Position numbers and translations under genes: made by a program. A stretch of 64,000 nt of DNA from Diabrotica undecimpunctata (Eukaryota > Arthropoda > Insecta > Coleoptera > Chrysomelidae): assembly GCF_040954645.1 (NCBI RefSeq), contig NC_092806.1, positions 117,596,458 through 117,660,457 on the forward strand, read 5' to 3'. The notes beneath the pieces were generated by a model. That model made no database searches, had not been told where the DNA came from, and was given only the letters and a program-made list of their open reading frames with translations. Of the stretch, positions 12,701 through 30,107 are shown one piece after another; the stretch's first letter is position 1; each line of letters begins with the position of its first letter.

Positions 12701-13058
12701 TGAGAAACATAAAACTAGAACTCATGGAGGCTCAAGAAAATTCTAGGAGTATCAGATTTATATGGATTCCATCCCACATTGGCATCACAGCAACGAAAGT
12801 GCGGACCAGTGCGCGAGTGAAATTGCTAAATGTGCCGATATAGAAAAAGCCGAGTATCGAAATACCGCGAGTGGTATAAAAGCATTTTTAAAGAAGCGAG
12901 TTTTGTGCAACTGGAAAAACGAATCGCAAACTTCTCAAACATCACTAAAGCAAATTAAAAATGACGTTACAGCTTGGGAACTCTCAACCAGGAACAGAAG
13001 AGAACAATTGGTGATAACGAGATTACGAATTGGACACACGAGACTTACTCATTCATAT
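9742..13058 (+). pseudogene. LINE ORF2: endonuclease, reverse transcriptase, RNase H (broken)
   Basis: ORF2 begins near QWNIDGF (about 9742). Endonuclease motifs are CLQET, GDFNGHNFIWGS (about 9985) and GSDHHPI (about 10207); a deletion seems to join VAK to IPSPRII near 9960. The reverse transcriptase spans about 10800-11720, with SYRPISLTCAMGKLLEKII, GFRQNRSG, a first-Asp segment VLFDLRKAFNT (about 11313) and YADDLVVY (about 11585, in another frame). RNase H follows, with FTDASKCDKGVGGAF (about 12472) and ILSDSLSAL (about 12640). A Lys (SAKLYAM) sits where the catalytic Glu is expected. Stops occur near 10752, 11379 and 12744. The frame is cut at 13058 by the gypsy insertion and its Cys/His tail lies at 27655-27860. 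Confidence 0.82.
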
Positions 13059-13348
13059 TGTTACGAACATGCATTCTACATAGCCCATATAACGGTTGCA
13101 GCCCGGGACGAGGATGATCTGTCTTTCTAGAAGCGATCGGAACTGTCGACCGCTGGAGAATTCGACCTGACAAGCAAACGAATTAGAGGTAGACTACGCC
13201 AGAATATTCTAGTACATAATAACTTTTATATATAAGCATACCTTCTACGAGTTAAGTTGAAGTTGATAAGATATTTTCGTACTGTAAACTTATAAATAAA
13301 TATATTTACATAAATTAAGAACCGCTCGTTTTATTTAATCTCGCTACA
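13059..13348 (+). repeat. 5' LTR of gypsy element
   Basis: 290 bp beginning TGTTACGAAC and ending CTCGCTACA, directly after the LINE target ATAT. The part from 13110 onward aligns with 27416-27650. A TGGTGTCCGGTG run begins at 13350, one base after the LTR, where a tRNA primer-binding site (starting TGG) is expected. Confidence 0.88.
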
Positions 13349-13349
13349 G

Positions 13350-13367
13350 TGGTGTCCGGTGTGAAAT
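13350..13367 (+). promoter_or_regulatory. Candidate tRNA primer-binding site of gypsy element
   Basis: TGGTGTCCGGTGTG begins one base downstream of the 5' LTR. Primer-binding sites start with TGG because they pair with the CCA end of a tRNA. The matching tRNA was not identified. Confidence 0.5.
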
Positions 13368-13511
13368 TTCAAAATAAATTCAGCAGTGATTGCTTAAAAA
13401 AAGAGACTTTGGGACTTTTGAAAAGTATTGTTAGTCGGGAACATTCGGGTAGTTCGGTAGTGATCTTTGTACGAAAGAACATTTGAAAAGTACGTGTGCG
13501 CCTGATCAAAG

Positions 13512-14520
13512 ATGCTGCTAGTACAACTTTCAGTAAAACAGTTGCGTGAGTAACTAGAAGAACGCGATGAAGACTGCAGCGGGTCGAAGAAAATCCTCCA
13601 AGAACGAATGTTCTTAACAAGAATGGAGATGACCCAGAGACATTCCAGTTTCAATCAGCAGGAGAAACAGTTTTAACAAAAATGAATGCGAAATTTAAAA
13701 ACGTGTCGTAAATGATTGAAGAAACTTCTAGAAAGAATGATGAAAGATTCGATGAAACGCCTCAAATTATTAAAGAAGCAGCTAAACAAAATGACTAGAA
13801 ATTTGAAAATGTGTCTAGAAGATTCGACGAGGTTCCTCAAATAATTAAAGAAGTATGTATGCAGAACAATGAAAAATTTGATAAAGTTTCTAAAACATTC
13901 GATAAAGTAGAAGAGAAGATCAAACAGTTATAGAGCATGATAACCAATACAAAAGTTCTACCACCAGTTAATACAGTAGCCTTAGATCCGGTAGTGAAAG
14001 AAGAATCACCTAAAGACGAAACGCCACATCATATGAGATTCAAATTGCCACCATTTGATGGAAATTCCTCTTGGTCCATATACCTTAGACAATTTGAAGC
14101 TATTGCGACAGCCAATCATTGGACAGAACAAGAAAAAGCTGTTTCCTTGACTGCTGCTTTACGAGGTGATGCTGCGGATATCCTAAGATCGATTCCTAAG
14201 GGTCAAGAAAAATGTTACCAGACCTTCTAGACAAACGTTACGGAGATGCCCGTCTACATCAAGTCTACAAGGTGCAACTAAGAAGTAGAATTCAACGAGC
14301 AAGTGAAAATTTGAAAGAGTTTGAAGCAGATGTTGCTCGTATAGTGCGGTTAGCTTATCCAGAGGAACCAGACAACATTTTGAAAGAAATTGCTGTAGAT
14401 ATCTTCGTCAATGGGTTAAAAGACAATAAATTACAGAAATCTTTACGACTAGCAAGACCGAAAGTTCTAGATGATGTTGGAATTGTGGTGACGTAGGTCA
14501 CATTCGCCGTAATTGCAAGA
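13512..14520 (+). pseudogene. Gypsy gag with SAP-like N-terminus and CCHC knuckle, broken
   Basis: Capsid/nucleocapsid gene of the gypsy element. The ATG at 13512 is followed by SVKQLRE, a stop, then LEERDEDCSGSKKILQERM, which has the helix-Gly-Lys-helix pattern of a SAP nucleic-acid-binding motif. Next come a Glu/Lys-rich coiled region with three spaced repeats (EE/FDE..PQIIKE, about 13710-13860), a capsid core (FKLPPFDGNSSW, YLRQFEAIA, about 14040-14110), a frame change near 14212, the second capsid half (LKEFEADVARIVRLAYPE), and a zinc knuckle CWNCGDVGHIRRNC (about 14479-14520) in yet another frame. At least four stops and two frame changes make it inactive. Confidence 0.8.
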
Positions 14521-14521
14521 A

Positions 14522-15428
14522 AATGATACAACAGTCGAGAAACTAGAACGGGTTGACACCAAGGGGCAACTGCCGACCTCGAAAAACACAGCCACCATAG
14601 TAACTGTGAACATTACGTCCTCCGGCGGAATTCATAGCTTGTACATCGAGGGTCGTGTCAATAATAAATGTAGATCGTTTTTCGTAGATACAGGTGCAAC
14701 AAGAACTATTGTACATCCAGAAGTAGTACGAGGCCCTCTTAAATTATCGCCTGCAACAGTAAAGCTTAGAATAGCAGCTGGTGAGATAATTAATACATAT
14801 GGCGAGGCTAATATGTCAGTATCCATTGACTACACCACAGTGAAACATAGAGTATTAATTGCAGAGATCTCCGATGAGTTCATATTGGGGATGGATTTAC
14901 TAAGGAAAGTTGGTGCTGTATTGAATTTCAAAGATCGAGTTCTCGAGATCAGTGGTAAAGAGTTGCCGTCTCATGAAGACAAAGAAGATTTTATCAGCTT
15001 AATAACTACTTGTGACGTAACAATACCCGGTAATAGTGAGAAAATTTTGATGACCAGACCTGATGGTTACTGCCGAGAGGGAAGTTTAAGGATGATCGAA
15101 GTTGTGAACAATGCCGAGTTCCTAACGGCAAAAGCTTTGGTGAGATTTCGAGATGTCGTTCCTGTAAGAGTTATAAATTTAAAGGGAACTGTTATTAAGT
15201 TAAGTAAAAGAACTTTGATCGGACAGTGTGTTCCCGTGGCTTCGATTTGTTCTATGAATACTAATGAGAAACCATCGAAATCTAAGTATCCAAAGGAGCT
15301 TGTTGAGATGGTGATTAAAACGTGCCAAGATCTTGATGATGAACGAACTAAAAAAGTGAAGTCTATGCTGATAGAATTCCAAGATGTTTTTGCCATTGAT
15401 AAGAAGGATAAGGGCAAAACAAGCATAG
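14522..15428 (+). pseudogene. Gypsy protease and start of reverse transcriptase region
   Basis: Open frame carrying a retropepsin-type aspartic protease: FFVDTGATRTIVHPEVV (about 14680) supplies the DTG catalytic triad and FILGMDLLRKVGA (about 14880) the flap-side ILGMD motif. Downstream lies the usual linker to the reverse transcriptase (IEFQDVFAIDKKDKGKTSI), where the BEL/Pao element interrupts at 15428. Reading resumes at 24918 with VKHKINTGYAQPIRQQPRR. The frame upstream, from the zinc knuckle, is shifted, so the polyprotein cannot be made. The protease motifs themselves are intact. Confidence 0.85.
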
Positions 15429-15893
15429 TGTCCAATATCAAATCTTCATAATTCATATCCGAAATTGGACAGTATAATTTTATCACCCAGTAGACCGAAT
15501 GAATCTATTTGTTATTAAATACACACACGTAGTTAATTAGGTTACATACACATTTGGTCAATTATAAATAATAATTTGGACATCAGTAAAAAGTACTGAC
15601 AAAGTTAAACAATTTACATAAATTAAATACACATATCACGCTAGGTCCGCGAAAATATTGACCCAATTAGAATTTATATAAAACTAATATCTCTTGACTA
15701 GAGAAGCATTCAATCAATATTCACTCAACGAACATATAGTCTTCAACGATCAACTGCATCAGTCTCTACTCAAAGTAATCCCGGGTCTACACCCATAGTG
15801 TACGTCTCAACAATAAACTCTGCTACTATTATTTGGTGTTTCCATTACAACAGAACGAACATCTTCACTGAGCCAACGAAGGGAATTTGTTCA
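15429..15893 (+). repeat. 5' LTR of BEL/Pao element
   Basis: 465 bp, TG...CA bounded, same sequence as 24448-24912 by eye. It should contain the element's promoter. TGGTCCTATCGAG follows immediately, beginning with the TGG expected of a primer-binding site. Confidence 0.96.
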
Positions 15894-15911
15894 TGGTCCT
15901 ATCGAGAAACA
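15894..15911 (+). promoter_or_regulatory. Candidate tRNA primer-binding site of BEL/Pao element
   Basis: TGGTCCTATCGAGAAACA directly abuts the 5' LTR end. Position and the leading TGG fit a tRNA 3'-end primer site. The tRNA identity was not determined. Confidence 0.55.
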
Positions 15912-16002
15912 GAATACTTCAAGGAAGTTTGAGAGAGCCTATACAGTCCACGCCAGCAACACCCTCAGTAGCAGAGAGAGACCACTAGACCCGGGAGAAC
16001 GA

Positions 16003-16452
16003 GAGCCATACCAAAGCCAAGAGCCACACTAGAGCCGAGAGCAGTACCAAAGCCAAGAGCCATACCAAAGCCGAGAGCCATACTAGAGCCGAGAGCGGTA
16101 CCAAAGCCGAGAGCCATACTAGAGCCGAGAGCGGTACCAGAGCCGAGAGCAGTACCAAAGCCGAGAGCCATACTAGAGCCGAGAGCGGTACCAAAGCCGA
16201 GAGCCATACTAGAGCCGAGAGCGGTACCAGAGCCGAGAGCAGTACCAAAGCCGAGAGCCATACTAGAGCCGAGAGCAGTACCAAAGCCGAGAGCCATACT
16301 AGAGCCGAGAGCAGTACCAAAGCCGAGAGCCAGACTAGAGCCGAGAGCAGTACCAAAGCCGAGAGCCATACTAGAGCCGAGAGCAGTACCAAAGCCGAGA
16401 GCCATACTAGAGCCGAGAGCAGTACCAAAGCCGAGAGCCATACTAGAGCCGC
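16003..16452 (+). repeat. 18/36-bp minisatellite in BEL/Pao 5' leader
   Basis: About 25 tandem copies of an 18-bp unit in two alternating forms, AGAGCCATACTAGAGCCG and AGAGCAGTACCAAAGCCG, giving a 36-bp higher-order period with point variants (GGTACC, CAGACT). Because 18 is a multiple of three, long artefactual open frames appear on the minus strand (Gly/Ser/Ala-Leu repeats). On the plus strand one frame is also open (RAILEPRAVPKP repeats), but it has a TAG just upstream and no ATG. It lies between the primer site and gag, so it is most likely untranslated leader or cis-regulatory DNA. Confidence 0.93.
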
Positions 16453-16519
16453 AGAGCAGCCAAAGGACAGGACCGATTGCAGAACCCACCAGAAGCGAGG
16501 GATCCTCAACGTCTAAGAA

Positions 16520-17094
16520 CACAAAAAACCGTAAGTTTTTGAATAATTAGAAAATCTTCCAACTTTTACAATCTTACAATTTAACAAGTTTTTTTTATTA
16601 CAATTTAACAATTTAAAACAACAATCTCCACTCTATCAATCGTATAATAATGTACTTTAGAATGCATACCATTTAAATAATACAGAGAATCGATAAAACA
16701 AAAATAAACGTCATTCACAACTATAATTAACTAAACAGTAATTTTGTATGACAATTTGAAAAAAGAAACGTTCATACATATAGCTTGCTTTTAATTACAA
16801 TTAAATATTTTATTTCGAAAAATTAAAATAATTACGTAGCAAATAATTTCATTTATTTTGATAACAATATATATATATATGTATATATATCATTATAAGA
16901 GTGTGTGGATTACATCTTGACCTACCTCAATGCAAAGAATAGCACAGCAGGCAAGGTCAAACTCATATTTCGCTAAATTGCACATTCCGATAGAAAAGAA
17001 AGTGTTATAATACAGGTATACTTATTTAATACATAACGTACATTTACTATTGTCTAATATATTTACCGCTGAATGTAAAAATTTTAAAATAATC
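16520..17094 (+). other. Remaining BEL/Pao leader, AT-rich
   Basis: Between the minisatellite and the gag ATG there is AT-rich DNA with a short TA/TG microsatellite (about 16868-16890) and no coding motif. It is probably untranslated leader. Confidence 0.5.
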
Positions 17095-17679
17095 ATGGAG
17101 AGTCTATACGTTAAGCAAGCGGAAATAGGAACAGAAATAGTGAAACTCGTTTCAAATACAAAAAAGGATTCCCAATCTCGGAAAAATCAACAATACATCC
17201 GGGATAGACAGGAAAAATTAGAAGAATATTGGGCAAAATTTTTAAATAACCACGAAAAGCTGCTAGAAGGGGGTATAACGAAAGAAAAATATTTTGAAAC
17301 AAAATACTATGATCAGGTATTTAAGACATACATTGAGGGGAAAACCCTGTTGGAAGAATATGGAAGGGTGCTGAAAAGAGGAAAAGCACCGAAAGTAAAG
17401 GAGATACAGATAAGAAAACAAAGAATCGAGGAATTATTACGGCCAGAAAATGAACAAGACTTGCAGGAGGATGAAGAATTGCAGTCAGAGTTAAGAGAAT
17501 ACATGGAAAAGGTGAATACACTAATGATTGAAGCAGCAGTAAATGAGGAACTGGACGCTACAGATATTGGAGAAGTAGAGAGAATAAATCATCTAAAGAG
17601 GAAAGTCAGGGAAGTTTTAAAGAAAATAAGGCCAGATATGAAACGTGGAGAACTTTCCACGATCTGTTTACTAAAGTAA
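17095..17679 (+). CDS. BEL/Pao gag, N-terminal part (frame breaks near 17640)
   Basis: Start of the gag gene. The first ATG is at 17095 ([18 protein letters not shown]); the frame is open a little further upstream but only through a TTG. The product is very rich in Glu and Lys with long predicted helices and coiled-coil character ([11 protein letters not shown]), typical of the N-terminus of BEL/Pao gag. The last 12 or so codons before the stop at 17677 read as non-homologous text, because the capsid sequence continues in a different frame from about 17643. The short Leu-Pro-rich block that normally precedes it in this family is not visible. A small deletion with frameshift is the simplest explanation. 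Confidence 0.75.
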
Positions 17680-19382
17680 TACATGAAAACGACCAGTTAT
17701 CAAACGCAGAAAAAATGCAGTACCTAAAAACTCAAGTAAGAGGGGAAGCCAACAGAATGATACAACACTTAAACATATCCGAGGCCAACTACGAAGTGGC
17801 CTGGAACATGCTAAAAGATAGGTATGAGAACCCAAGGATGATATTGTTTAAATTAATAGACAGGATGCTACTAGCGCAGGAAGTAAAGGAATCTTCTGCT
17901 AGAGCATTGAAATCACTACATGACACCTTCCACGAAAGTCTGGGAGCCATAGGAGGGTTAGGAACAGACACGGAAGCGTGGAGCCCATTGATAGCCCGAA
18001 TTATCATAACGAAATGGGACAATGAAACTAGGAGGCTGTACGAAAACCACATTGGAGACAGTAGAGAGATACCGACGTACAAATCGACACAAACATTCTT
18101 ACAGCGAAGATTTCAGACACTGGAACTGCTGGAGTCAGAAAAAAGACAAGAGAAGCAAGGAGGATCTCTTAGGAAACCAAGAACACATTGCGTGATATGC
18201 AACGGAGATCACGGAGTACCGAACTGCAGAGAATTTCAGGAACTCAATGTAAGAGACCGGAACAGGATGATAAAAGAAAAAGGATTGTGTACAAACTGCC
18301 TGGCACATAAAAAAGAAAAACAATGTTATTCACAATATAGGTGCAGACACTGTGGCGGAGACCACCACCATATGTTGCATTATGAAAAAGGAAACACAAG
18401 CAACAAAAGAAACTCCAATGAAACGAAACGAGAACAAACACAAGAAAGAAATGGAAGAGATTCAAACAATAGAAGAAACGGGTACCAAGCTGATAGGTAC
18501 AGAGGAGGAAATAATAATCCATACAACGCCAGAGAACAAAATAACGGAAGGCGAGAAAATACACAAGATACCAATGGGCCTAGGAATAGCAACGACCAGC
18601 AAAGAGGGCAGAATTCAGTAAACTGTGCAAGCCATAAGGAAGGTGAAGCATTACTAGCGACAGCTGTGGTACGCATAAGAGATGCGAAAGGAGATTCACA
18701 CATAATGAGAGCACTAATCGACCAAGGGTCACAATGCGCATTTATAACGGAACAAGCTGCGACGACGCTAGGAACAACAAGGAAGCCCATACAGGCGACC
18801 ATATCCGGGATAGGCTCGTCAGGAGAAAAAACAGCCAACTGGAGTATGAAACTTTTAATCGAAACTCATTACGAAAGTGACTTCGAGATGGAAATAGAAG
18901 CACTAGTACTACCGAAGATAACAAGGAATTTACCGGAAAAGGATATAATTCTACCGGACTATAACGAGAAAAATGCAATACTGGCAGATCCAAGATATTA
19001 CAAGGTAGGAAAGATAGACTTACTACTAGGAGTAAAAGAATACAGTTACATATTGACAGAAGGGATGCACAGAATAAGTAATGGACTCCTGAGTCAAAAC
19101 ACCAAACTAGGATGGATAGTTTCGGGAATAGCACGAGAAAGGGAGAATATAAAAGCAGAAGTATGCTGTATGATATCAAGACAAGAAATGGACGTACAAA
19201 TAAAGAACTTCTGGGAATTAGAAGAAGTAAATCAGGATACAAGTTTCTCAGTGGAAGAACAAGAATGTGAAGAACTGTATCGGCAGACTGTAAAAAGGAA
19301 TGAAGAAGGGAGATACGAAGTAAAAATTCCGTTTAGGGAAGACGTCGCAAAGTTAGAAGAATCTAAACAGCAACCAGATTGA
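17643..19382 (+). CDS. BEL/Pao gag C-terminus plus Pao-type protease
   Basis: Continuation of gag-pol in a shifted frame; the first ATG in this frame (17715) is probably not a real start. The capsid region ([17 protein letters not shown]) is followed by a Cys/His nucleocapsid region starting at residue about 159 counted from 17715: [40 protein letters not shown] low-complexity Asn/Arg/Glu linker precedes the Pao-family aspartic protease ([12 protein letters not shown], Asp at residue about 336; [10 protein letters not shown] further on). The frame stops at TGA 19380-19382, overlapping the pol frame by about 13 bases. A one-base deletion is one explanation and -1 ribosomal frameshifting is the alternative. 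Confidence 0.85.
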
Positions 19383-22300
19383 TGCAACTAGAAAGGAAGT
19401 TTGCAAAAGACAAACAGTTAGAAGCGAATTACAGACAATTCATGGAAGATTATGAAAACCAAGGTCATATGGTAATAGCAGAAAACCAGGGAGATGGGTA
19501 CTACTTACCTCATCATCCAGTGAGAAAAGAGGACAGTACTACAACGAAAATAAGAGCCGTGTTTGACGCATCAAGCAAAAGCTCATCGGCAGTAAGCCTG
19601 AATGATATTATGCACACAGGGCCGAAATTACAACAAGACTTGACAAATATACTATTACGATGGAGATCCAATAAGGTAGCATACTCAGCGGATCTGGAAA
19701 AAATGTTTAGACAAATCAGAATGGCAGAAGAAGACCAAAAATATCAAAAAATTTTGTGGAGAAAGGACACAAAGGACCACATACAAGAGTATAACTTAAC
19801 GACGGTGACATACGGCACGGCCGCAGCACCCTTTTTAGCGTTAAGAACAATACAACAATTACAAGAAGACGAAGGAGCGAGGTTCCCGTTGGCATCGAAA
19901 ATTGTAAAAGAAAACATGTATGTAGACGATATACTAGGAGGAGCTGAGACAGTGCAGGAAGCAGAAACAGCCCAAAAGGAATTAATACAACTGTTCAGAA
20001 AAGGAGGTTTCACTCTTAGAAAATGGTTGAGCAACGAAGAAAAAATAATGGAGAACGTACCGGAGGATATGAGGAACGTAGACTCGAAGGCATTCAAACA
20101 AGAAGAAGTACGGAAAACGTTAGGAATACACTGGTCACCTAAAGAGGATATAATCACATTCAAAATAGGGATAACGACGGCAAAGAAAATAACGAAAAGA
20201 CACGTACTGTCAGAAGTAGCAAAACTATACGACCCACTGGGATGGATAGCACCTGTAGTAATTCAGGCGAAAATGTTCATACAGGAATTATGGGAGCAAA
20301 AGACCAGTTGGGATAAAGAATTAACTAGCAACCAACAAAGCAGGTGGAATACATACCAGGCGCAATTAGTAAATCTGGAGAAAATAACATTGCCCAGGTG
20401 GAACAACTTAAGCAAGATAAACAGAGTAGAACTGCATGGATTTGCAGATGCGTCTATGAAAGGATATGGAGCGGTAATCTACTCAAGGGTATTAGGCCCA
20501 GAAATTAAAACGAATCTAATGATAGCAAAATCGAAAGTCGCACCATTGAAAGGGAAAACGACGTTACCGAGGCTCGAGCTGTGTGCCGCGGTACTACTAG
20601 CAAATTTAATGAAGAAAACCCTACAAGCATTGAACAGGGAAAACATTGAGGTATATGCATGGTCGGACTCAACGATAACCCTGGCTTGGATAAGGGGATC
20701 ATCAAAAAGGTGGAAAATGTTCGTCGCCAACAGAGTAGAGGAAATAAGACGCGTTATAGGACCGAAAAATTGGCATAAGGTAGATACAAAGGAAAATCCA
20801 GCGGACATCCTCTCACGTGGAAGTACCGCATCAGAATTATTAGAAGCAGAGCTATGGTGGAAGGGACCAACTTGGCTGACTAGTAACAAAACTTTAACGC
20901 AGGAATCAGAAGAAATACCAGAGACAAATGAGGAGGAAGTCAAAACGAAAATAACGGTGCACACGACAACGATAAAGGAGGACATATGCGAGAGATTCTC
21001 AAATTTAGAAAGAATGAGAAGAGTACTTTCATATTGTAGGAGATTTGCAGACAAATGCAGAAAAAAGAAGGACAATGGACAAAGTCAGCTTACAGTCCAA
21101 GAATTAGAGGAAACGCTATTAAAGGTGATAAAGCACACACAGCACGCCTACTTCAAACCAGAAATAAATAAGCTGGAGAAGAAACAGCAATTAGACAAGA
21201 AAAATAAATTAGCGTCATTGGTACCATTCCTGGATAGACAAGGAATTCTAAGAGTCACCGGAAGACTGAGACACACGAATCTAAAGTACGGAGAAAAACA
21301 TCCGATAATTTTGCCAAAGGATAGTGCATTAACAAAGTTACTTATAACAGATAGTCACGCAAGAAATCTACATAGCGGATTACAACAAACACTACAGTAC
21401 ATAAAAAGGAAATACTGGATAATCAACGGCAGAAGAACCGTGAAAGATCATCTAGCAAAATGTTTAAGGTGCAGGAGGTATAAAAGCCAAGCAGCACAAG
21501 AATTAATGGGAGATCTACCGAAAGACAGAGTGAACCCGAGTCATCCCTTTACTAACACAGGGATAGATTATGCCGGGCCAATAAAAATAAGTACCACGAG
21601 AGGCAGAGGACAGAGGAGCTATAAGGGCTACATCTCAGTATTTGTGTGTCTGTCAACGAAGGCAGTACACCTTGAGGTAGTAAGCGATATGTCTACGGAT
21701 GCTTTCATCGCAGCGTTCAAGAGATTTACGGCACGCAGAGGACAGTGCAACAACGTATACAGCGATAACGGAACCACATTCGTAGGAACAGCAAATTTGT
21801 TGAAAAAAGAAAATCAAAAAATAGATGACGAGATAAAACAAGGATTACGGGCACTAGGTACCCAGTGGCATGTCATACCTGCATATGCACCACATTTCGG
21901 AGGATTATGGGAGAGCGCAGTGCGAATAATGAAATATCACTTGAAAAGAATCATCGGGGAAACAGTTCTAACATATGAAGAATTGAGTACGGTGCTGGCA
22001 CAAATAGAAGCATGTATGAACTCGAGACCATTATGTGGGTCATCAGAAGACCCTGAAGGGAAAATAGCCCTGACACCAGCTCACTTCCTTATAGGGAGAG
22101 AAATTATATCACCAAATCGGGAAGAAGAGCTTACGACTTATTTGAAGATGCCGACGAGGTGGAGATTAGTGGAGAAAATAAAAAGAGACTTCTGGAAAAT
22201 TTGGAAACAGGAATACCTGCACCAATTACAACAGAGAAATAGATGGCATAAGGCGCACCCTAACATAAAAGAAGAAGAAATAGTTATAATTAAAGAAGAG

Positions 22301-24313
22301 GATACACCTCCAGGCAGATGGCCATTAGCGAGGGTAACAGAAACACACCCTGGAGCGGAGGGATTAACCAGAGTAGTAACAGTGAGAAAGGCAAACGGGA
22401 AACTGACTAAAAGACCCATACATAAGCTAATACGACTGGAAGAAGAGAAACAGGAAAAGCCGAAAAAGGCAGCAGCACTAAGATGGAAGAAAATACTAGT
22501 AGCTATAATGTTTTTAACGATGTTAAAACCCATAAAGGCAGAACCGTATAAAATATATAATCCGGTACCAGGATTTTTCACAGAAGACCTTGGAGAGGTC
22601 GTCATAGACCGGGGAACATTTCGAATAAAGGTGTTACTCGAAAAAGGAAGAATTCGAACAGAGCACCAACTAATAGGAAATATGATACAAGGCGTACGAG
22701 AACTGTGTCATGAGATAAAAATCGTGAATTGTAAGGATATAATAGAGAAATTGGAGGAAGGACAAAGAAAGGCGGAGTCAGTAAGCGAGGGGCTGACAGT
22801 AGAAATAAAAGGAAGGGAAAGAAGAGGAATATTAGGAACAATATTAACCTCAGTATTTGGAGTCAATGACGAAGCCTACAGTAACATTGAAGCATTAGAT
22901 AATAACCAAAAGGAGCTAATAAAGGGATCACAGCACCAGGCGAAGATAATGTTAGAAACAATAACATCAATCAATCACACAGAGAACAGGATAAACGAGC
23001 AAATGAACAAGTTTAACAAAGCACTAATCACAGGTCTACAAGAAATATCTAAAGGACTTAACGAAGTAGAAGACAAAGCACAAAAACTAGAAACCGAATA
23101 TAGCACGTTACGAATACAAACGATAGCATTACAAGTTATGGACTTCATAAACGAATATGCTCAATTTTACGAGGGAATATTAAACCTTCACTATAACCAC
23201 GGACACTTCATTGATATAGTGAAACCGGGTGAAATAACCAAATTAATAGGGAAAGCAGGGCAGATACTGCCTCAAGGGGTCGAAATACGACGACAACCCA
23301 TTATAGAAACAGAAGTCAGTCATGACGACAGATATATAACAGTCATCGGCTACTTCATAGTGACAGGGAAAAATAAGTACAGCATGCTCAAAGTCACGGC
23401 CATACCACTTAATGTTGAGGGGTCGGTGTTGCGCACATTTGTCGCCCCAAGGAATCTACTGGTCGTAGATTATAACACACTGCACTACTTCGAATTGACC
23501 ACGGAAGATAGAGAAAGGTGCTTACTGTTGACAAAGGCGCAGATAGCGTGCTCACCAACGGCTATAAGAAACATGGATACCCAACCAAACTGCATACTAG
23601 AAGAAATTTATGAGCGATCTAAGAATAGCACATGTCCAGTGGTAGCCAGGACAATACAGACAGCTCAATGGAGTAAGATGGGTACTCCCAACCTCTGGCT
23701 AGTTATCACGCCAGTCACGATACACATATCCATTATTTGCGATGGAAATCGGAGCGAAAGAGTACTGGAACGAGTCACATTCCTGAAGCTTTCACCCAAA
23801 TGTATCGCCCAAACGAAAAATATTACATTACTCCCCACTAGCAGTGGGGTGGACAGAGCAGTGACGAGTTACCTGAAGTCGCCAATCACTCCCGTGGCCC
23901 AACTGGTGGCGAGGACACCCCGCAAGTTTAACACGCCTCTAAACACCTACCTTGACATACCAGGAGGAGAGCTACGTCATGTGTTACTTGAGGAGGAGAG
24001 TCTGGAACAAGAAATGACGCATACGCAGTGGCGATCGATTCACGAATCTAATTGGCATTATTTTGTGGCCACCGGGATCATTACTATAATGGTAATAATT
24101 GGGATACTCACGTTATGGAAGTACCGTCCTGTTGCACGACTATGTCGTTCAGGGAATCCACAAACTCAGACTAACGAACAGGAAGTACCTGTATTAGTTA
24201 GTAATCGGCACAACAATGTACGGTCGACTTCCCAAGTTGACATCCCACTTTCCACATTTTCATCCAATTGCCCTAATTTTAATCTAGAGATAGAGTCGGA
24301 CATTGATAGCTAG
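19379..24313 (+). CDS. BEL/Pao polyprotein: RT, RNase H, integrase and env-like protein
   Basis: A 1644-codon intact frame; residue numbers count from 19379. Reverse transcriptase: [12 protein letters not shown] (Asp about 105) and YVDDIL (about 181-186). RNase [17 protein letters not shown] (about 353) and [13 protein letters not shown]. Integrase: a His/Cys finger ([15 protein letters not shown]), core TGIDYAGP (about 727), YSDNGTTF (about 794) and [10 protein letters not shown] with the catalytic Glu. A BEL-specific tail follows ([28 protein letters not shown]). From about 1036 an envelope-like region begins with a hydrophobic signal-like segment. A basic RERR site (about 1146-1149) is followed by a glycine-rich hydrophobic stretch ([13 protein letters not shown]), then coiled-coil and Cys-containing regions, and a C-terminal membrane helix (about 1562-1580) with a short cytoplasmic tail. 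This resembles baculovirus-F-type fusion proteins acquired by some insect retroelements. Whether env is spliced out or cleaved from the polyprotein is not visible. Confidence 0.92.
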
Positions 24314-24447
24314 GGTACGGTTGGAAGATTATTGATTATTCTTAAACTATTTATAATTTATCATGTTTGAATTTTACTATGTTATGTAATACTTATATGT
24401 AAACTTTGAGTATTGACACTTGGGCCAGATTGCCCGATTCCGCAGTA
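24314..24447 (+). other. BEL/Pao 3' untranslated region
   Basis: Short AT-rich sequence between the polyprotein stop and the 3' LTR. A clear polypurine tract, normally the plus-strand primer just before the LTR, is not obvious: the bases there read GATTGCCCGATTCCGCAGTA. Confidence 0.55.
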
Positions 24448-24912
24448 TGTCCAATATCAAATCTTCATAATTCATATCCGAAATTGGACAGTATAATTTT
24501 ATCACCCAGTAGACCGAATGAATCTATTTGTTATTAAATACACACACGTAGTTAATTAGGTTACATACACATTTGGTCAATTATAAATAATAATTTGGAC
24601 ATCAGTAAAAAGTACTGACAAAGTTAAACAATTTACATAAATTAAATACACATATCACGCTAGGTCCGCGAAAATATTGACCCAATTAGAATTTATATAA
24701 AACTAATATCTCTTGACTAGAGAAGCATTCAATCAATATTCACTCAACGAACATATAGTCTTCAACGATCAACTGCATCAGTCTCTACTCAAAGTAATCC
24801 CGGGTCTACACCCATAGTGTACGTCTCAACAATAAACTCTGCTACTATTATTTGGTGTTTCCATTACAACAGAACGAACATCTTCACTGAGCCAACGAAG
24901 GGAATTTGTTCA
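24448..24912 (+). repeat. 3' LTR of BEL/Pao element
   Basis: 465 bp, the same as 15429-15893 by eye, followed by the target duplicate CATAG (24913-24917) and then the resumed gypsy reading frame. Confidence 0.96.
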
Positions 24913-24917
24913 CATAG

Positions 24918-25790
24918 TAAAGCATAAAATTAATACCGGATACGCTCAGCCAATCAGACAACAACCTAGACGACTTCCATTTGCGAAAAGAGATGAAGCC
25001 TAAGACATCATCAAAGATATGAACAAACAAGGGGTAATTGAACCATCAAACAGTCCATGGACATCACCAGTAGTGCTGGTAAAAAAGAAAGATGGTTCAA
25101 CGCGTTTTTGTATTGACTACCGACAGCTCAATTCAGTAACTAAAAAAGATAGTTTTCCTTTGCCCAGAATAGACGATACTTTGGATACTCTTTCTGATTC
25201 TCGTTGGTTCTCCACACTTAAGAGGTCTAACATGGAAAACATGCCTGGTTTATTTGCACGATGTAATTGTGGTTGGTAGATCCTTCGATGAACATGCCAA
25301 CAATCTGAAAGAAGTCTTTCAACGATTGCGGGGAGCGAATTTGAAGTTAAGTCCGAAGAAATGTCACATGTTTCGACGAGAAGTGAAGTACTTGGGACAT
25401 ATTGTAGCAAGTAATGGTATAACAACTGATCCTGAAAAATTTGCAGCAATTAAGGATTGACCAGTACCAAGAGACAAACACGAAATTAGAAGTTTTCTTG
25501 GTCTATGTACATATTACCGAAGTTTTGTCAAAGGATTTGCCAACATCTCCAAGCCTTTAACAAAGTTGACAGAAGAAGGCAAATAATATACATGGAGCAA
25601 AGAGTGTCAAAAAGCTTTCGAACAATTAAAAATGGCTCTGATCAGTGCACCGATTTTAAGCTATCCTAGACAGGCAGGAAAATTTGTGTTGGACACCGAC
25701 GCCAGCAACAGTGCAATAGGAGCTGCTCTCCCAAATCCAAGATGGGCAGGGGAAAACCATCGCTTACTTTAGCAAAGTCTTGTCGAAACT
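24918..25790 (+). pseudogene. Gypsy reverse transcriptase and RNase H, broken
   Basis: Resumption of the gypsy pol after the BEL/Pao insertion. Motifs: [31 protein letters not shown] and [11 protein letters not shown]. Then a deletion joins WFSTL directly to the segment before the active-site box (near 25220), removing the palm region with the first Asp. The YLDD box reads YLHD at 25251-25262, in a shifted frame. The downstream text SFDEHANNLKEVFQRL, KYLGHIVASNGI, SFLGLCTYYRSFVKGFA and the RNase H start FVLDTDASNSAIGAAL (about 25683) is still readable with stops (near 25460 and 25585). RNase H is cut short and joined to integrase near 25800 by another deletion. Confidence 0.82.
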
Positions 25791-25799
25791 AGAAAGAAA

Positions 25800-26929
25800 C
25801 TATTACTACTAGAAAGACTCTGCAAAAGGTTCGAGAACGGTTCTATTGGATGAACTGTAAAGATGATGTAGGAAGATGGTGTCGAAAATGTGAACTGTGT
25901 GCAACCAGTAATGGTCCAGTTGGTAAAAAGAGGGCACTCATGAAACAGTACAATGTTGGTAGTCCTATGAAAAGAGTAGCAATCGACATTGCAGGTCCAC
26001 TTCCAGAGACGAATGATGGAACTAAATATATCTTGGTAGCCATGGATTATTTTACGAAATGGACTGAGGCCTATGCGATACCAAATCAAGAAGCTGGTAC
26101 CGTTACAGAGGTACTTTTTAAAGAATTCTTTAGCCGATTTGGTGTTCCCTTGGAGATCTACTCCGACCAAGGGCGAAACTTCGAGTCAACCCTTTTCCAA
26201 AACGTTTGTAAATTGATTGGTGTCAATAAAACCAGAACGACACCCCTGCATTCTCAATCAGATGGAATGGTCGAAAGGATGAACCGAACGATGGGTAAAC
26301 ACCTGTCCAAAGTTGTATCAGAACATCAAAGAGATTGGGACCAGCACATTCATTTATTCCTAATGGCATACCGCTCGGCCGTGAATGAAACTACAGGCCA
26401 GACTCCAACTTGCCTGATGTTAGGTCGTGAGGTTCGTTTGCCCTGCGTCCTAGAGTTTGGCTGCAGACCTTCCGAAGAACATGTTGGAAGCGAAGATTAT
26501 GTCGACCGCCTGAAGTTAAGAATGAACAGCATTCATGAACTTGCCCGACAACACATCCAGTTAGCCAGTGACAGAATGAAAGATCAATAGAATTCTCGAT
26601 GCAAGAATGAAATCTATGAAGTAGGTGATCTTGTTTGGCTTTATAATCCAGAACGTCGTCGAGGCTTGTCTCCTAAATTGCAAAGACAATGGGAAGGTCC
26701 GTATGAAATTAAAAAGAGAATAAATGACGTAATATACCGAATTAAGAAGTTGCCGAAAGGTAAACCAAAAGAAGTTCACATAAATCGTCTTGCACCTTAT
26801 GCTGGCTCAAATGAAACAGAAGAAGCACGAACCCTTCAACATGAGATCAAAGATGACCGGCGCGGCGACCAAGCTTTATTGAATTTATGTCAAATTACGC
26901 AGAAAGAAAGAGTGCTAGATTCGGCGTGA
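25800..26929 (+). pseudogene. Gypsy integrase, one stop, N-terminus damaged
   Basis: Integrase joins element DNA to the host chromosome. The zinc-finger region is only partly kept (WMNCKDDVGRWCRKCELC, about 25848). The catalytic core is open from 25850: VAIDIAGPLPETNDGT (first Asp, about 25983), IYSDQGRNFES (second Asp, about 26157) and SQSDGMVERMNRTM (Glu, about 26253). A TAG stop at 26588 precedes the C-terminal SH3-like part (YEVGDLVWLYNPERRRGLSPKL; GPYEI; VHINRLAPY), which runs to the stop at 26929. All three catalytic residues are present. The last 43 bases overlap the start of the macrodomain frame in a different register. Confidence 0.85.
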
Positions 26930-27350
26930 TCATAGAAAATCAGCAGGATCTTTTTAGTGTTCCGCATAACGTCTCTCTAGCCCACTGTGTTGCCCAAGAT
27001 CTTGAGATGACTAAAGGAATCTCATCCGTATTTTATAAGAAATTCGGTCGTTTGGACGAGTTAAAAAACCAGCAGCCTAAAGTTGGAAGAGTACTGAGAT
27101 TAGAAGATGGTTCTCGATCTTTGTTGTATATGGTGACCAGGAAGTCGTATACAGACAGGGCAAGCTACCAGGATATATGGCGTGCTCTAACTAATTTGAA
27201 GAAAATCGTGTGTAATTATGCCATCAAGAATTTAGCCTTACCCAAGATAGGCCACGCACTAGAAAATCTGGATTAGAAGATTGTCAGAAGCACGCTTGAA
27301 GTAATCTTCCGAGAAACCGGCGTACGAATTACTGTGTGTTGCGTTAACCC
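26887..27350 (+). pseudogene. TARG1/OARD1-like macrodomain carried by the gypsy element
   Basis: An extra frame between integrase and the 3' LTR, the slot where env genes sit. It starts with ATG at 26887, overlaps pol in the -1 register, runs to TAG at 27274, and remains readable to about 27350 (IVRSTLEVIFRETGVRITV), so the TAG replaces a single codon, probably the Trp after LENLD. The text DLFSVPHNVSLAHCVAQDL, then TKGISSVFYKKFG, then LLYMVTRKSYTDRASYQDI, then LALPKIGHALENLD matches the whole macrodomain fold of the TARG1/OARD1 group, enzymes that remove ADP-ribose from glutamate-linked sites. The catalytic Lys (human residue 84) is Arg here, the catalytic Asp (human 125) is Glu, and the preceding Gly is Ala. 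It may bind but not hydrolyse, or it may be decaying. A host-gene origin is likely and the role in the element is unknown. Confidence 0.8.
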
Positions 27351-27381
27351 GAAGAGATCGTGTTCTTCAAAGTCAGTAGAC

Positions 27382-27650
27382 TGTTATTTCTTCTTCATGC
27401 AGAGCTGGAGAGTCTGAGGATGATCTGTCCTTCTAGGAGCGACCGGAACTATCGACCGCTGGATAGTTCGACCCGACAAGCAAACGAATTAGAGGTGGAC
27501 TACGCCAGAATATTCTAGTACATAATAACTTTTATAAGTATACCTTCTACGAGTTTAGTTGAAGTTGATAAGATATTTTCGTGCTGTAAACTTATAAATA
27601 AATATATTTATATAAATTAAGAACCGCTCATTATATTTAATCTCGCTACA
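27382..27650 (+). repeat. 3' LTR of gypsy element
   Basis: Alignable to the 5' LTR from 27416 to 27650 (ends CTCGCTACA), followed by the target duplicate ATAT. The left boundary is uncertain; TGTTAT at 27382 is the best match to the TGTTAC start of the 5' LTR, but the next 30 bases have diverged or been shortened. No clear polypurine tract precedes it. Confidence 0.75.
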
Positions 27651-27654
27651 ATAT

Positions 27655-27960
27655 TTATTGTTCAAAAGTGATCCACCTATATGTGAAACATATAATGTAC
27701 AAGTTATCGTTAACCACTTATTAATTGAATGCCATAGTTTTACCAATTCTCGTGTTACATTTAACATACCTAACAGTATAAGTAATTTATTAGGCACTAA
27801 CTTTTCAGCTAATAATATTGTAATTCTCTTAAAATCTATAGGAATATTTTATAAACTCTAATTTTGTAATTCTATAGCCGCCGCTAATAACAATTAGGTA
27901 TGGTGGATGCGGCTGTAATTTTTAATTAAAAAAATTCGGAAAACTGTTTAAACTTTACCT
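27655..27960 (+). mobile_element. I-like LINE, downstream part (ORF2 C-terminus and 3' UTR)
   Basis: The remainder of the LINE interrupted at 13058. It encodes the Cys/His tail of ORF2 (PPICETYNVQVIVNHLLIECHSF, a CX..H..C pattern split here by its positions 27673-27735) and ends at a stop near 27859. An AT-rich 3' UTR follows, with an A-rich run near 27930. The exact 3' end and the LINE's own target duplication were not found. Confidence 0.85.
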
Positions 27961-28298: not shown

Positions 28299-30107
28299 AT
28301 GCTTGTTGTGATTATTCAGTTATTTTTTATATCTTCTGTTGAAAAAATATTAAATATTGATCCACTTGAAGATCTAAGCACTGAGATGTCTTTAAATAAT
28401 TGTGCTGCTGAATTGTCAAGAACCCATTTTAAAGACCAATTTAATGAAAGCGTTATAGTAATTTTCGAAAATTCTACCAGATTTTCAACACTCCGTTCAT
28501 TTTTAGTCAACAAATTAGCCAATGAAAATAAACCATGCTATATATTATCCCTTAAAAAAGCAGTATTGAGTTTTAAGTCAACAAAATTGTTCAAATATAT
28601 ATTAATCGAAATATCATCTGTCGATAAATTTAAAGAAACACTTGAAAGGGTAAAAGTTTTACCGAGTTGGAATCCCAAAGCAAACTTTTTAGTTGTATCG
28701 TTTACAGCATTTGAAAATTCTAAAGTAGTAGCAACTATAATTTTTACTTTGCTTTGGAAAGAAAATATAGTTCCAATAGCTGTTCTACTAATAGATCAAA
28801 AGAACTTAACAGACTTCAATATTTTTACAAGATGTTCCAATAACGATACTAATATAGAGGTCTCAGCGTCGAATATATGTAGAGGATTAGCAAGAGAAAA
28901 TACAACCTATAGCGAAACAGTACGATCAATAAACAAATTTAAAAAAGTTAGAGCTAAATTTTATCCATGGCCTCCTTTTGTCATGTATAATGGTATTTCT
29001 TTTAACGTTAAAAATCCGGGAATAGAGGTACAACTGATAGAGACATTAGCACAAAAATTGGAACTTACTATGGAGTATTATGTTATGGACACTACATATG
29101 CTAGTGGAGAAGTTTTCGACAATGGAACTGTAACAAAGGAATTCAAAGAGTTATCTGATAACAAATTTGATATAATATTTGGTGGATATGCGTTAACACA
29201 CGGAAGAATATTGTACTTCAATCCTAGTATTTCCTATTACCTTGATGAGTTGCTATGGTGCGTCCCAAGTAGAATATATTACGAATTTAATATAAATATT
29301 CAGACAGTAGTAATCTTAATTGTTTTATTAATACTGTTAGTCTTGATATCTTTAATTTGGTATGTTGACCAAGACACAGAACCAAAATTAAGATTTGATA
29401 CGTCTATTGACGGAATCGTTTTAAATATCTTTGCCATATGTTTACATGTAACTATTGCACGTTTGCCAAAAACTGACAGGTTAAGATACTTTGTGGGTTT
29501 ATTAATTATTTTTGCATTTTTTTGCAATACTATGGTTACCATGAAAATAACAAGTCTGTTTATTGGAAGGAAACCATCGCAGAAGTATGATTCCATGTCA
29601 AAAATATATAAAAGCAATTTAAAAACTTATTTCGTTACTAACTCATTTAGATACTTCACCAATGACTTTATTGAAGGAATACCCAGAGATATAATAGCAA
29701 AGAGAAAAATTGATTGTCTAGATAATCTAGAATGTTTAAAAATTGTTGCGGAAGGGGATTCTGCGTTATTAACCAAGAAGAGTAATACTGAATATTTGCT
29801 AAAGAAAAATTATGTTGATAGAAAATCATTTTATTGCTTTCATTATTCATATGGAAGCTCCATATCTTTGATTATGAGGAAAGGTTTTACGTATATTAAT
29901 GAAATAAATAAAATTATTCATCATTTAACATCTACAGGAGTAATTCAGAAATGGAGAAATGAAATTTTTTCCATCGACAATGAAGATAAAAGTGAACTTA
30001 ACGTTCAGGAATTGAAACTCCAAGAGATTATCGTAATATTTTATATTTTAATATTTGGTTATACTTGTTCAATTTTAGCGTTTCTTTTTGAAATTTACAC
30101 GATGTAA
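28299..30107 (+). CDS. Divergent ionotropic receptor (IR), copy 2, complete single exon
   Basis: A complete 602-residue chemosensory ionotropic receptor, an amino-acid-derived ligand-gated cation channel family of insect sensory neurons. A signal peptide (MLVVIIQLFFISS) is followed by a short N-terminal domain to about residue 205. The S1 lobe (KFYPWPPFVMYNG, about 220; FDIIFGGYALTHGRILYF, with an Arg at about 303) is followed by WCVPS (320) and the first membrane helix (about 336-355). Then come a pore segment (IVLNIFAICLHVTIARLP), a second helix (about 397-420), the S2 lobe, and a last helix (about 575-597). The length fits divergent IRs. The gene is intronless with no stop and has paralogs on the same strand at 3 and 39181. 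The subfamily (Ir7, Ir52, Ir60 or another) cannot be assigned by eye. Confidence 0.93.
   Translation: MLVVIIQLFFISSVEKILNIDPLEDLSTEMSLNNCAAELSRTHFKDQFNESVIVIFENSTRFSTLRSFLVNKLANENKPCYILSLKKAVLSFKSTKLFKYILIEISSVDKFKETLERVKVLPSWNPKANFLVVSFTAFENSKVVATIIFTLLWKENIVPIAVLLIDQKNLTDFNIFTRCSNNDTNIEVSASNICRGLARENTTYSETVRSINKFKKVRAKFYPWPPFVMYNGISFNVKNPGIEVQLIETLAQKLELTMEYYVMDTTYASGEVFDNGTVTKEFKELSDNKFDIIFGGYALTHGRILYFNPSISYYLDELLWCVPSRIYYEFNINIQTVVILIVLLILLVLISLIWYVDQDTEPKLRFDTSIDGIVLNIFAICLHVTIARLPKTDRLRYFVGLLIIFAFFCNTMVTMKITSLFIGRKPSQKYDSMSKIYKSNLKTYFVTNSFRYFTNDFIEGIPRDIIAKRKIDCLDNLECLKIVAEGDSALLTKKSNTEYLLKKNYVDRKSFYCFHYSYGSSISLIMRKGFTYINEINKIIHHLTSTGVIQKWRNEIFSIDNEDKSELNVQELKLQEIIVIFYILIFGYTCSILAFLFEIYTM

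Follow-up and report, generated by a model that had tools for sequence, protein, structure and literature searches.

A family of insect Ty3/gypsy retrotransposons carries a macrodomain of the TARG1/OARD1 class, which most likely extends Pol at its C-terminus, where it follows the GPY module of integrase and often precedes a CCCH finger. The copy described here lies in a window of 64,000 nucleotides from Diabrotica undecimpunctata (by the window we mean the whole stretch of DNA that was analysed). The proposal to which the sequences lead us, and in which our confidence is slightly better than even, is that the family captured TARG1 as an integrase-fused ADP-ribose module, which would act as an eraser where the catalytic dyad is intact and at most as a reader in Diabrotica.

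The Ty3/gypsy copy spans positions 13059-27650 of the window, with a 4-bp target duplication, ATAT, on both flanks (Table 1). Over 13110-13348 the 5' LTR matches the 3' LTR at 221 of 239 positions; 14 of the 235 aligned bases differ, and there is a single 4-bp gap. Joining the flanks with one copy of ATAT gives an open reading frame over the junction that resembles, by eye, the end of a LINE protein. We regard the bounds of the element as supported, because the duplication is present and the joined flanks restore a LINE-type frame. The insertion site itself (12762-13058 and 27651-27800) is a LINE-type C-terminal frame, jockey-like by eye, so that a BEL element lies in a gypsy element that lies in a LINE.

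The earlier note's identification of the host element as Ty3/gypsy is borne out by the LTRs with their ATAT duplication and by the protease and integrase domains; the order protease, reverse transcriptase, RNase H, integrase is also as expected of Ty3/gypsy, the reverse transcriptase and RNase H being recognised by eye only. The two gag-remnant ORFs gave no Pfam match at E 0.05; over 34 residues there is weak similarity (E 1e-5) to the gag-like part of P0054, a relative in which a gag-like N-terminus runs straight onto the macrodomain leader of the family, as a deletion in the copy or splicing of its message might produce. The final 23 bases of the protease ORF come from the LTR of the BEL element. 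Of the reverse transcriptase, the stretch due after 25219 (part of the palm) is absent from this copy, the active-site box reads YLHD in a three-frame reading by eye, and Pfam gave no match on 25019-25279. The ORF at 25850-26590 is the integrase core (PF00665, E 2.3e-13), while 26666-26929 matches PF22938 above its cut-off (E 1.8e-11) and PF24626 below it (24.4 bits against a cut-off of 30). The window copy is dead: its frames are broken and interrupted by stops, its reverse transcriptase is incomplete, and a BEL element is nested in it.

Table 1. Features of the Ty3/gypsy copy and of the element nested in it, in window coordinates.
Feature	Position	Strand	Basis or remark
5' LTR (TG...CA), target copy ATAT just before	13059..13348	+	LTR alignment, duplication, closure of LINE frame
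gag remnant, two overlapping ORFs	13937..14496	+	assigned chiefly by position
pol start with aspartic protease	14513..15451	+	PF13975, E 2.6e-9
Younger BEL/Pao element within gypsy pol	15429..24912	+	separate from the macrodomain system
Reverse transcriptase, part one	24913..25219	+	three-frame reading, by eye
Reverse transcriptase, part two, and RNase H remnant	25227..25800	+	two more frames with stops, by eye
End of integrase zinc-binding domain and catalytic core	25793..26590	+	ends in TAG 26588-26590
Integrase C-terminal SH3/GPY module	26594..26929	+	Pfam; GPY motif read in frame
TARG1/OARD1-class macrodomain, ended early by TAG	26887..27276	+	dyad positions R84, E125; sequence, model, stop
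Remainder of macrodomain and start of CCCH segment	27277..27396	+	same frame past the stop; tblastn
CCCH finger piece, CRAGES in another frame	27398..27415	+	compared with P0006, by eye
3' LTR, beginning lost, target copy ATAT after	27416..27650	+	LTR alignment, duplication

The nested BEL/Pao element (9.5 kb) has 465-bp LTRs that are 100% identical and a 5-bp target duplication, CATAG, and its insertion looks recent; its assignment rests on the LTRs, on Baculo_F and DUF1759 matches, and on inspection by eye. A single long ORF in it (19379-24313) joins pol with a Baculo_F-type envelope part, and an array of 18-bp units occupies 15910-16541, between its 5' LTR and first gag-side ORF. Just downstream of the gypsy copy, at 28299-30107, is an open ORF of 602 aa that by eye is like an insect ionotropic receptor.

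Read from the window, the macrodomain ORF begins with ATG at 26887 and ends after 129 aa in a TAG at 27274-27276, and not at 27350, the end that the earlier note had given it. The 43-base overlap with pol is as that note described, the macrodomain being in another frame than the integrase-tail ORF at 26666-26929. The TAG takes away the last helix and strand of the domain. Translated searches (tblastn) with D. virgifera relatives match the macrodomain frame past the stop, to 27381 with P0003 and to 27396 with P0006; all the motifs that had been quoted for the domain are present, although the one reading RITV falls in this part, past the stop in the same frame. Directly after the CRAGES piece comes the interior of the 3' LTR; between them this copy has lost the rest of the finger, the polypurine tract and ~50 bases from the start of the LTR. 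No env gene was found between integrase and 3' LTR in the window; the macrodomain and CCCH remnant abut the LTR.

The class of the domain, as the earlier note had proposed it, is upheld by sequence and by fold. Residues 19-128 of the window ORF match human TARG1/OARD1/C6orf130 chains at E 5e-20 in a PDB sequence search. An AlphaFold2 model of the ORF (pLDDT 86.5, with the 37-row alignment A4 as input) matches TARG1 with bound ADP-ribose (4j5s) at E 1.4e-10, with an rmsd of 1.0 Å over 110 columns at 36% identity; its top eight structure matches are TARG1 throughout, and DarG, alphavirus and other macrodomains rank behind. We assign the window domain and that of P0053 to the TARG1/OARD1 class on this combination of sequence similarity and a macro fold closest to TARG1. 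An HMM or structure search had been suggested as a check, and one part of it was silent: the Pfam Macro model reported nothing against the window ORF at E 0.1. It gave 19.1 bits for P0001, below the cut-off of 22, and scores mostly below cut-off for the relatives scanned. Pfam by itself would have overlooked the window macrodomain.

Three protein searches, the last of which contributed its best 120 of 1445 matches, yielded a family of at least 33 proteins, sorted by hand on an integrase tail, a common leader ahead of the macrodomain, or close similarity (P0001-P0011, P0013, P0023-P0025, P0035, P0040, P0049-P0059, P0063, P0077, P0079, P0087 and P0112). Among the matches listed, these come from at least 12 insect genera: Diabrotica, ten other beetle genera (Pyrocoelia, Aquatica, Aromia, Exocentrus, Molorchus, Acanthoscelides, Callosobruchus, Brassicogethes, Gonioctena and Leptinotarsa) and Ladona, whose member is one 92-residue fragment, P0035. 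We take Ladona to be a dragonfly and the other named genera to be beetles. The proteins closest to the window macrodomain are from Diabrotica, with up to 88% identity in the protein search, and the Diabrotica relatives come from different D. balteata contigs and from two other Diabrotica species. Scans of viral contigs with P0001 and P0056 gave no relatives.

The search for further copies that the earlier note had called for thus succeeded, in Diabrotica and in other genera, with integrase domains in some of the proteins. Given a TARG1-class match and related copies in other hosts, neither of the grounds named in advance for dropping the idea (no macrodomain match, or a sequence confined to this one copy) applies. 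That the window simply holds a one-off insertion of a host gene, an annotation artefact or a chance ORF finds nothing in its favour save the window's single copy, and is refuted by relatives in 12 genera and on different D. balteata contigs, some of them with integrase domains; the target duplication, which supports the bounds of the element, also speaks against it. We give it practically no credence.

Integrase C-terminal sequence and the macrodomain stand in one protein in 14 of the 33 relatives, by a motif scan in which many of the others are fragments, P0024 is counted on one short motif alone, and insect gene models may have joined frames where contig-derived proteins presumably did not. 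PF22938 scores above its cut-off in seven (P0007, P0013, P0051, P0053, P0063, P0077 and P0079). Behind the macrodomain, the CCCH motif C-x7-C-x5-C-x3-H is intact in 12 of the 33, again by a motif scan with many fragments among the rest. Seven of these 12 were scanned with Pfam (P0010, P0025, P0051, P0053, P0055, P0077 and P0087), and a CCCH cut-off is reached by P0077 and missed by the other six; P0051 carries a precomputed PF15663 in the search listing. P0013 and P0079 have no CCCH motif though the ends of these proteins are present. Several relatives end in LRRGQCNE-like peptides, which we infer to be the translated polypurine tract and first bases of the LTR. No env match was found in the Pfam-scanned relatives, which are partial proteins, and no chromodomain was found behind integrase by Pfam in the scanned pieces of the window and the relatives; the macrodomain occupies that place.

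Because 14 of the relatives hold integrase C-terminal sequence and macrodomain together, a C-terminal extension of Pol is the most likely arrangement, and the earlier note's placing of the gene in the env position is doubtful. In the relative P0003 (D. virgifera) the residues ahead of the leader read EDDAQPSFKEFM. The pol frame of the window reads KDD, and its macrodomain frame picks up at PSFIEFM. Since the integrase tail and macrodomain are in different frames in the window, the frame break would be a local indel near 26858-26868, that is, decay. The overlapping separate frame could also be taken at face value, as a free-standing accessory protein encoded where env would be, and translated from its own frame or from a spliced RNA. 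In its favour, the predictions for many relatives give a macrodomain protein that begins at an internal Met, and the gag-like part joined to a macrodomain in P0054 is what splicing, or a deletion, could give. However, it does not explain the 14 relatives whose macrodomain protein also contains integrase C-terminal sequence, and the break in the window is readable as an indel in a pol that is broken elsewhere too. We consider a separate accessory protein improbable, and continue with the extension of Pol.

Catalysis by TARG1 is described as running via K84 and D125 (PMC6397177, PMC5413906). In relatives outside Diabrotica, K84 is kept in all 27 rows and D125 in all 24 that have the residue, the three without it being two fragments (P0011 and P0035) and one local gap (P0077). 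The same holds for 124 rows from outside the family, with K84 in all 116 and D125 in all 114 where the residue is present. In the five Diabrotica proteins and the window, by contrast, position 84 is R in six of six and position 125 is E in five and V in one; the window copy (R84, E125) lacks the dyad that relatives outside Diabrotica possess. As both positions of the dyad are replaced, hydrolysis of ADP-ribose in the Diabrotica lineage is doubtful. The earlier note's expectation that the domain removes ADP-ribose therefore agrees with the residues of the family outside Diabrotica, and not with those of the lineage in which the note was made.

Beyond the dyad, a pattern published for TARG1, TKx(30,35)Px[IL]GxGxD (PMC6397177), fails in the window. 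It is found in full in six of the 33 relatives (P0007, P0008, P0013, P0055, P0058 and P0079) and, with the first G left free, in 22 of 33, several of the remainder being fragments. S35 has become Ala in most relatives and G121 is Ala, Ser or Val in many; T83 is altered in two relatives (P0063, P0112) and P118 in one (P0087). Mean pairwise identity among the 27 non-Diabrotica macrodomains is 0.56 (346 pairs). When the macrodomain is set against the integrase module in ten integrase-bearing proteins, of whose 45 pairs 26 have enough overlap, mean identity is 0.57 for the macrodomain and 0.69 for the integrase module, and the macrodomain is the higher in only three of the 26.

Such a rate of change, the loss of the dyad in Diabrotica, and the lack of a CCCH motif in P0013 and P0079 although their ends are present would all suit a functionless captured fragment, kept by its place between integrase and LTR. 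Yet open frames occur across 12 genera. The 27 non-Diabrotica rows also agree throughout at 18 of the 135 columns of the macrodomain, and these include H32, C33, K84, G123 and D125. We hold a mere passenger to be very unlikely, if anything a shade more so than a separate accessory protein.

Another reading keeps the domain functional but makes hydrolysis secondary. The macrodomain would then act mainly to steer integration to ADP-ribosylated chromatin, DNA-damage sites for example. In chromoviruses the chromodomain sits behind the GPY module of integrase, the same place as the macrodomain has here. Although they lack the dyad, the Diabrotica copies are found on more than one D. balteata contig and in two further species of the genus, and overexpressed TARG1 is reported at DNA-damage sites (PMC4695847). 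On the other hand, a pure reader would have no need of K84 and D125, which are retained wherever a non-Diabrotica copy shows these positions. We judge a role chiefly in reading to be unlikely, while ranking it well above a passenger.

A macrodomain tree of 84 rows was built from 30 of the 33 family members (P0005, P0006 and P0040 being left out), the window, and 53 other sequences picked by hand. The earlier note had asked for a phylogeny, and in this tree (support 100/95) and in a tree of 49 rows (98/93) the family copies form one clade. Its neighbours in the 84-row tree are P0084 (94/73), then flea OARD1 (92/89), and next out the fly and mosquito OARD1s with four further rows (96/75). This nesting among insect OARD1s is absent from the 49-row tree, where it is not rejected (p 0.27). 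A single capture behind the family is well supported by the trees, and the donor was likely an insect OARD1. As a source, solved viral macrodomains were set aside, TARG1 being a far better structural match.

Two further arrangements were seen among the matches. P0012 has an integrase H2C2 zinc-binding domain (PF17921) and a TARG1-like macrodomain (PF01661, 39 bits) in another place in pol, and may be another capture. In P0022 and P0047 the macrodomain follows residues that, by eye, are like the tail of a Ty3-type RNase H (LSR), and it may here sit at a third place in pol. Tests on the 49-row tree do not reject a family clade that takes in P0012 (p 0.096) or P0022 (p 0.12), so that separate captures for these two are unsupported.

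Put together, the course of events that we propose is as follows. An insect Ty3/gypsy lineage would have acquired the TARG1/OARD1 macrodomain of a host, in the simplest case by a single event, and its integrase (Pol) would have been extended in frame at the C-terminus by this domain, a fusion seen in the proteins of the relatives. The CCCH finger often comes behind it, directly ahead of the 3' LTR and of what the terminal peptides suggest is the polypurine tract. The macrodomain would ride with integrase to chromatin and there bind ADP-ribose on proteins or nucleic acid. Copies with K84 and D125 would strip ADP-ribose and clear PARP-made marks from the element or from the place where it integrates; in Diabrotica, where the dyad is now R/E, the domain is predicted to be at most a reader. 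The more specific version, in which an active integrase-borne hydrolase stripped PARP marks as a counter-defence and later became a hydrolysis-dead reader in Diabrotica, we put forward only tentatively, as possible but on the unlikely side.

C-terminal modules of integrase help to set where LTR elements land, and the known examples recognise histone marks or attach to host factors. In Drosophila without PARP-1, several elements of the gypsy superfamily are reported to be expressed more highly, possibly indirectly (PMC7712786), and SIRT6 is named in a review among mono-ADP-ribosylating enzymes, as one that takes part in silencing retrotransposons (PMC4695847). From these reports, the element would have something to gain from an ADP-ribose module, and the earlier note's idea that retrotransposons meet ADP-ribosylation as a restriction system is plausible. 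An insect family of jumping genes with a captured ADP-ribose domain suggests that retrotransposons deal directly with ADP-ribose marks. If integrase does carry a reader or eraser of ADP-ribose, integration would be linked to DNA-damage signalling and PARP silencing, and copies with the dyad intact (in Aromia, Pyrocoelia and Acanthoscelides, for example) would offer, against the dyad-lost copies of Diabrotica, a natural contrast of eraser and reader.

Among known systems, the domain is closest to TARG1/OARD1 (C6orf130) itself, in the PDB match given above, in a TM-score of 0.96 by TARG1 length for the P0053 model, and in K84 and D125 in all non-Diabrotica relatives that show them. It differs from TARG1/OARD1 in being fused to integrase, often with a CCCH finger, in S35 being mostly Ala and G121 often Ala or Ser, and in the replaced dyad of Diabrotica. 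The macrodomains of alphaviruses and coronaviruses share the macro fold, the ADP-ribose ligand and a place in a parasite genome, but are unlikely as the source because their structural matches are weaker than TARG1. Our literature search, limited and covering few subscription papers, found no report of a macrodomain in Ty3/gypsy or on integrase. Fish epsilon-like ERVs with macro-domain proteins, from work of 2009 cited in PMC4977317, are likewise retroelements with a captured macrodomain; by that citing description, through which alone we compare them, they differ in being fish retroviruses that have it in additional ORFs. A macrodomain in a retroelement is already on record there, and its fusion to integrase in insect Ty3/gypsy appears, within limited searches, to be new. 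LTR elements of bdelloid rotifers have also captured enzymes as extra coding sequence, in their case a GDSL esterase and a DEDDy nuclease as ORF3 (PMC5408684); the word 'macro' has 0 occurrences in the main text of that paper. Chromoviruses are alike in fusing a fold of chromatin-reader type behind the GPY module of integrase, and differ in that here a macrodomain and CCCH finger replace the chromodomain, and the ligand would be ADP-ribose.
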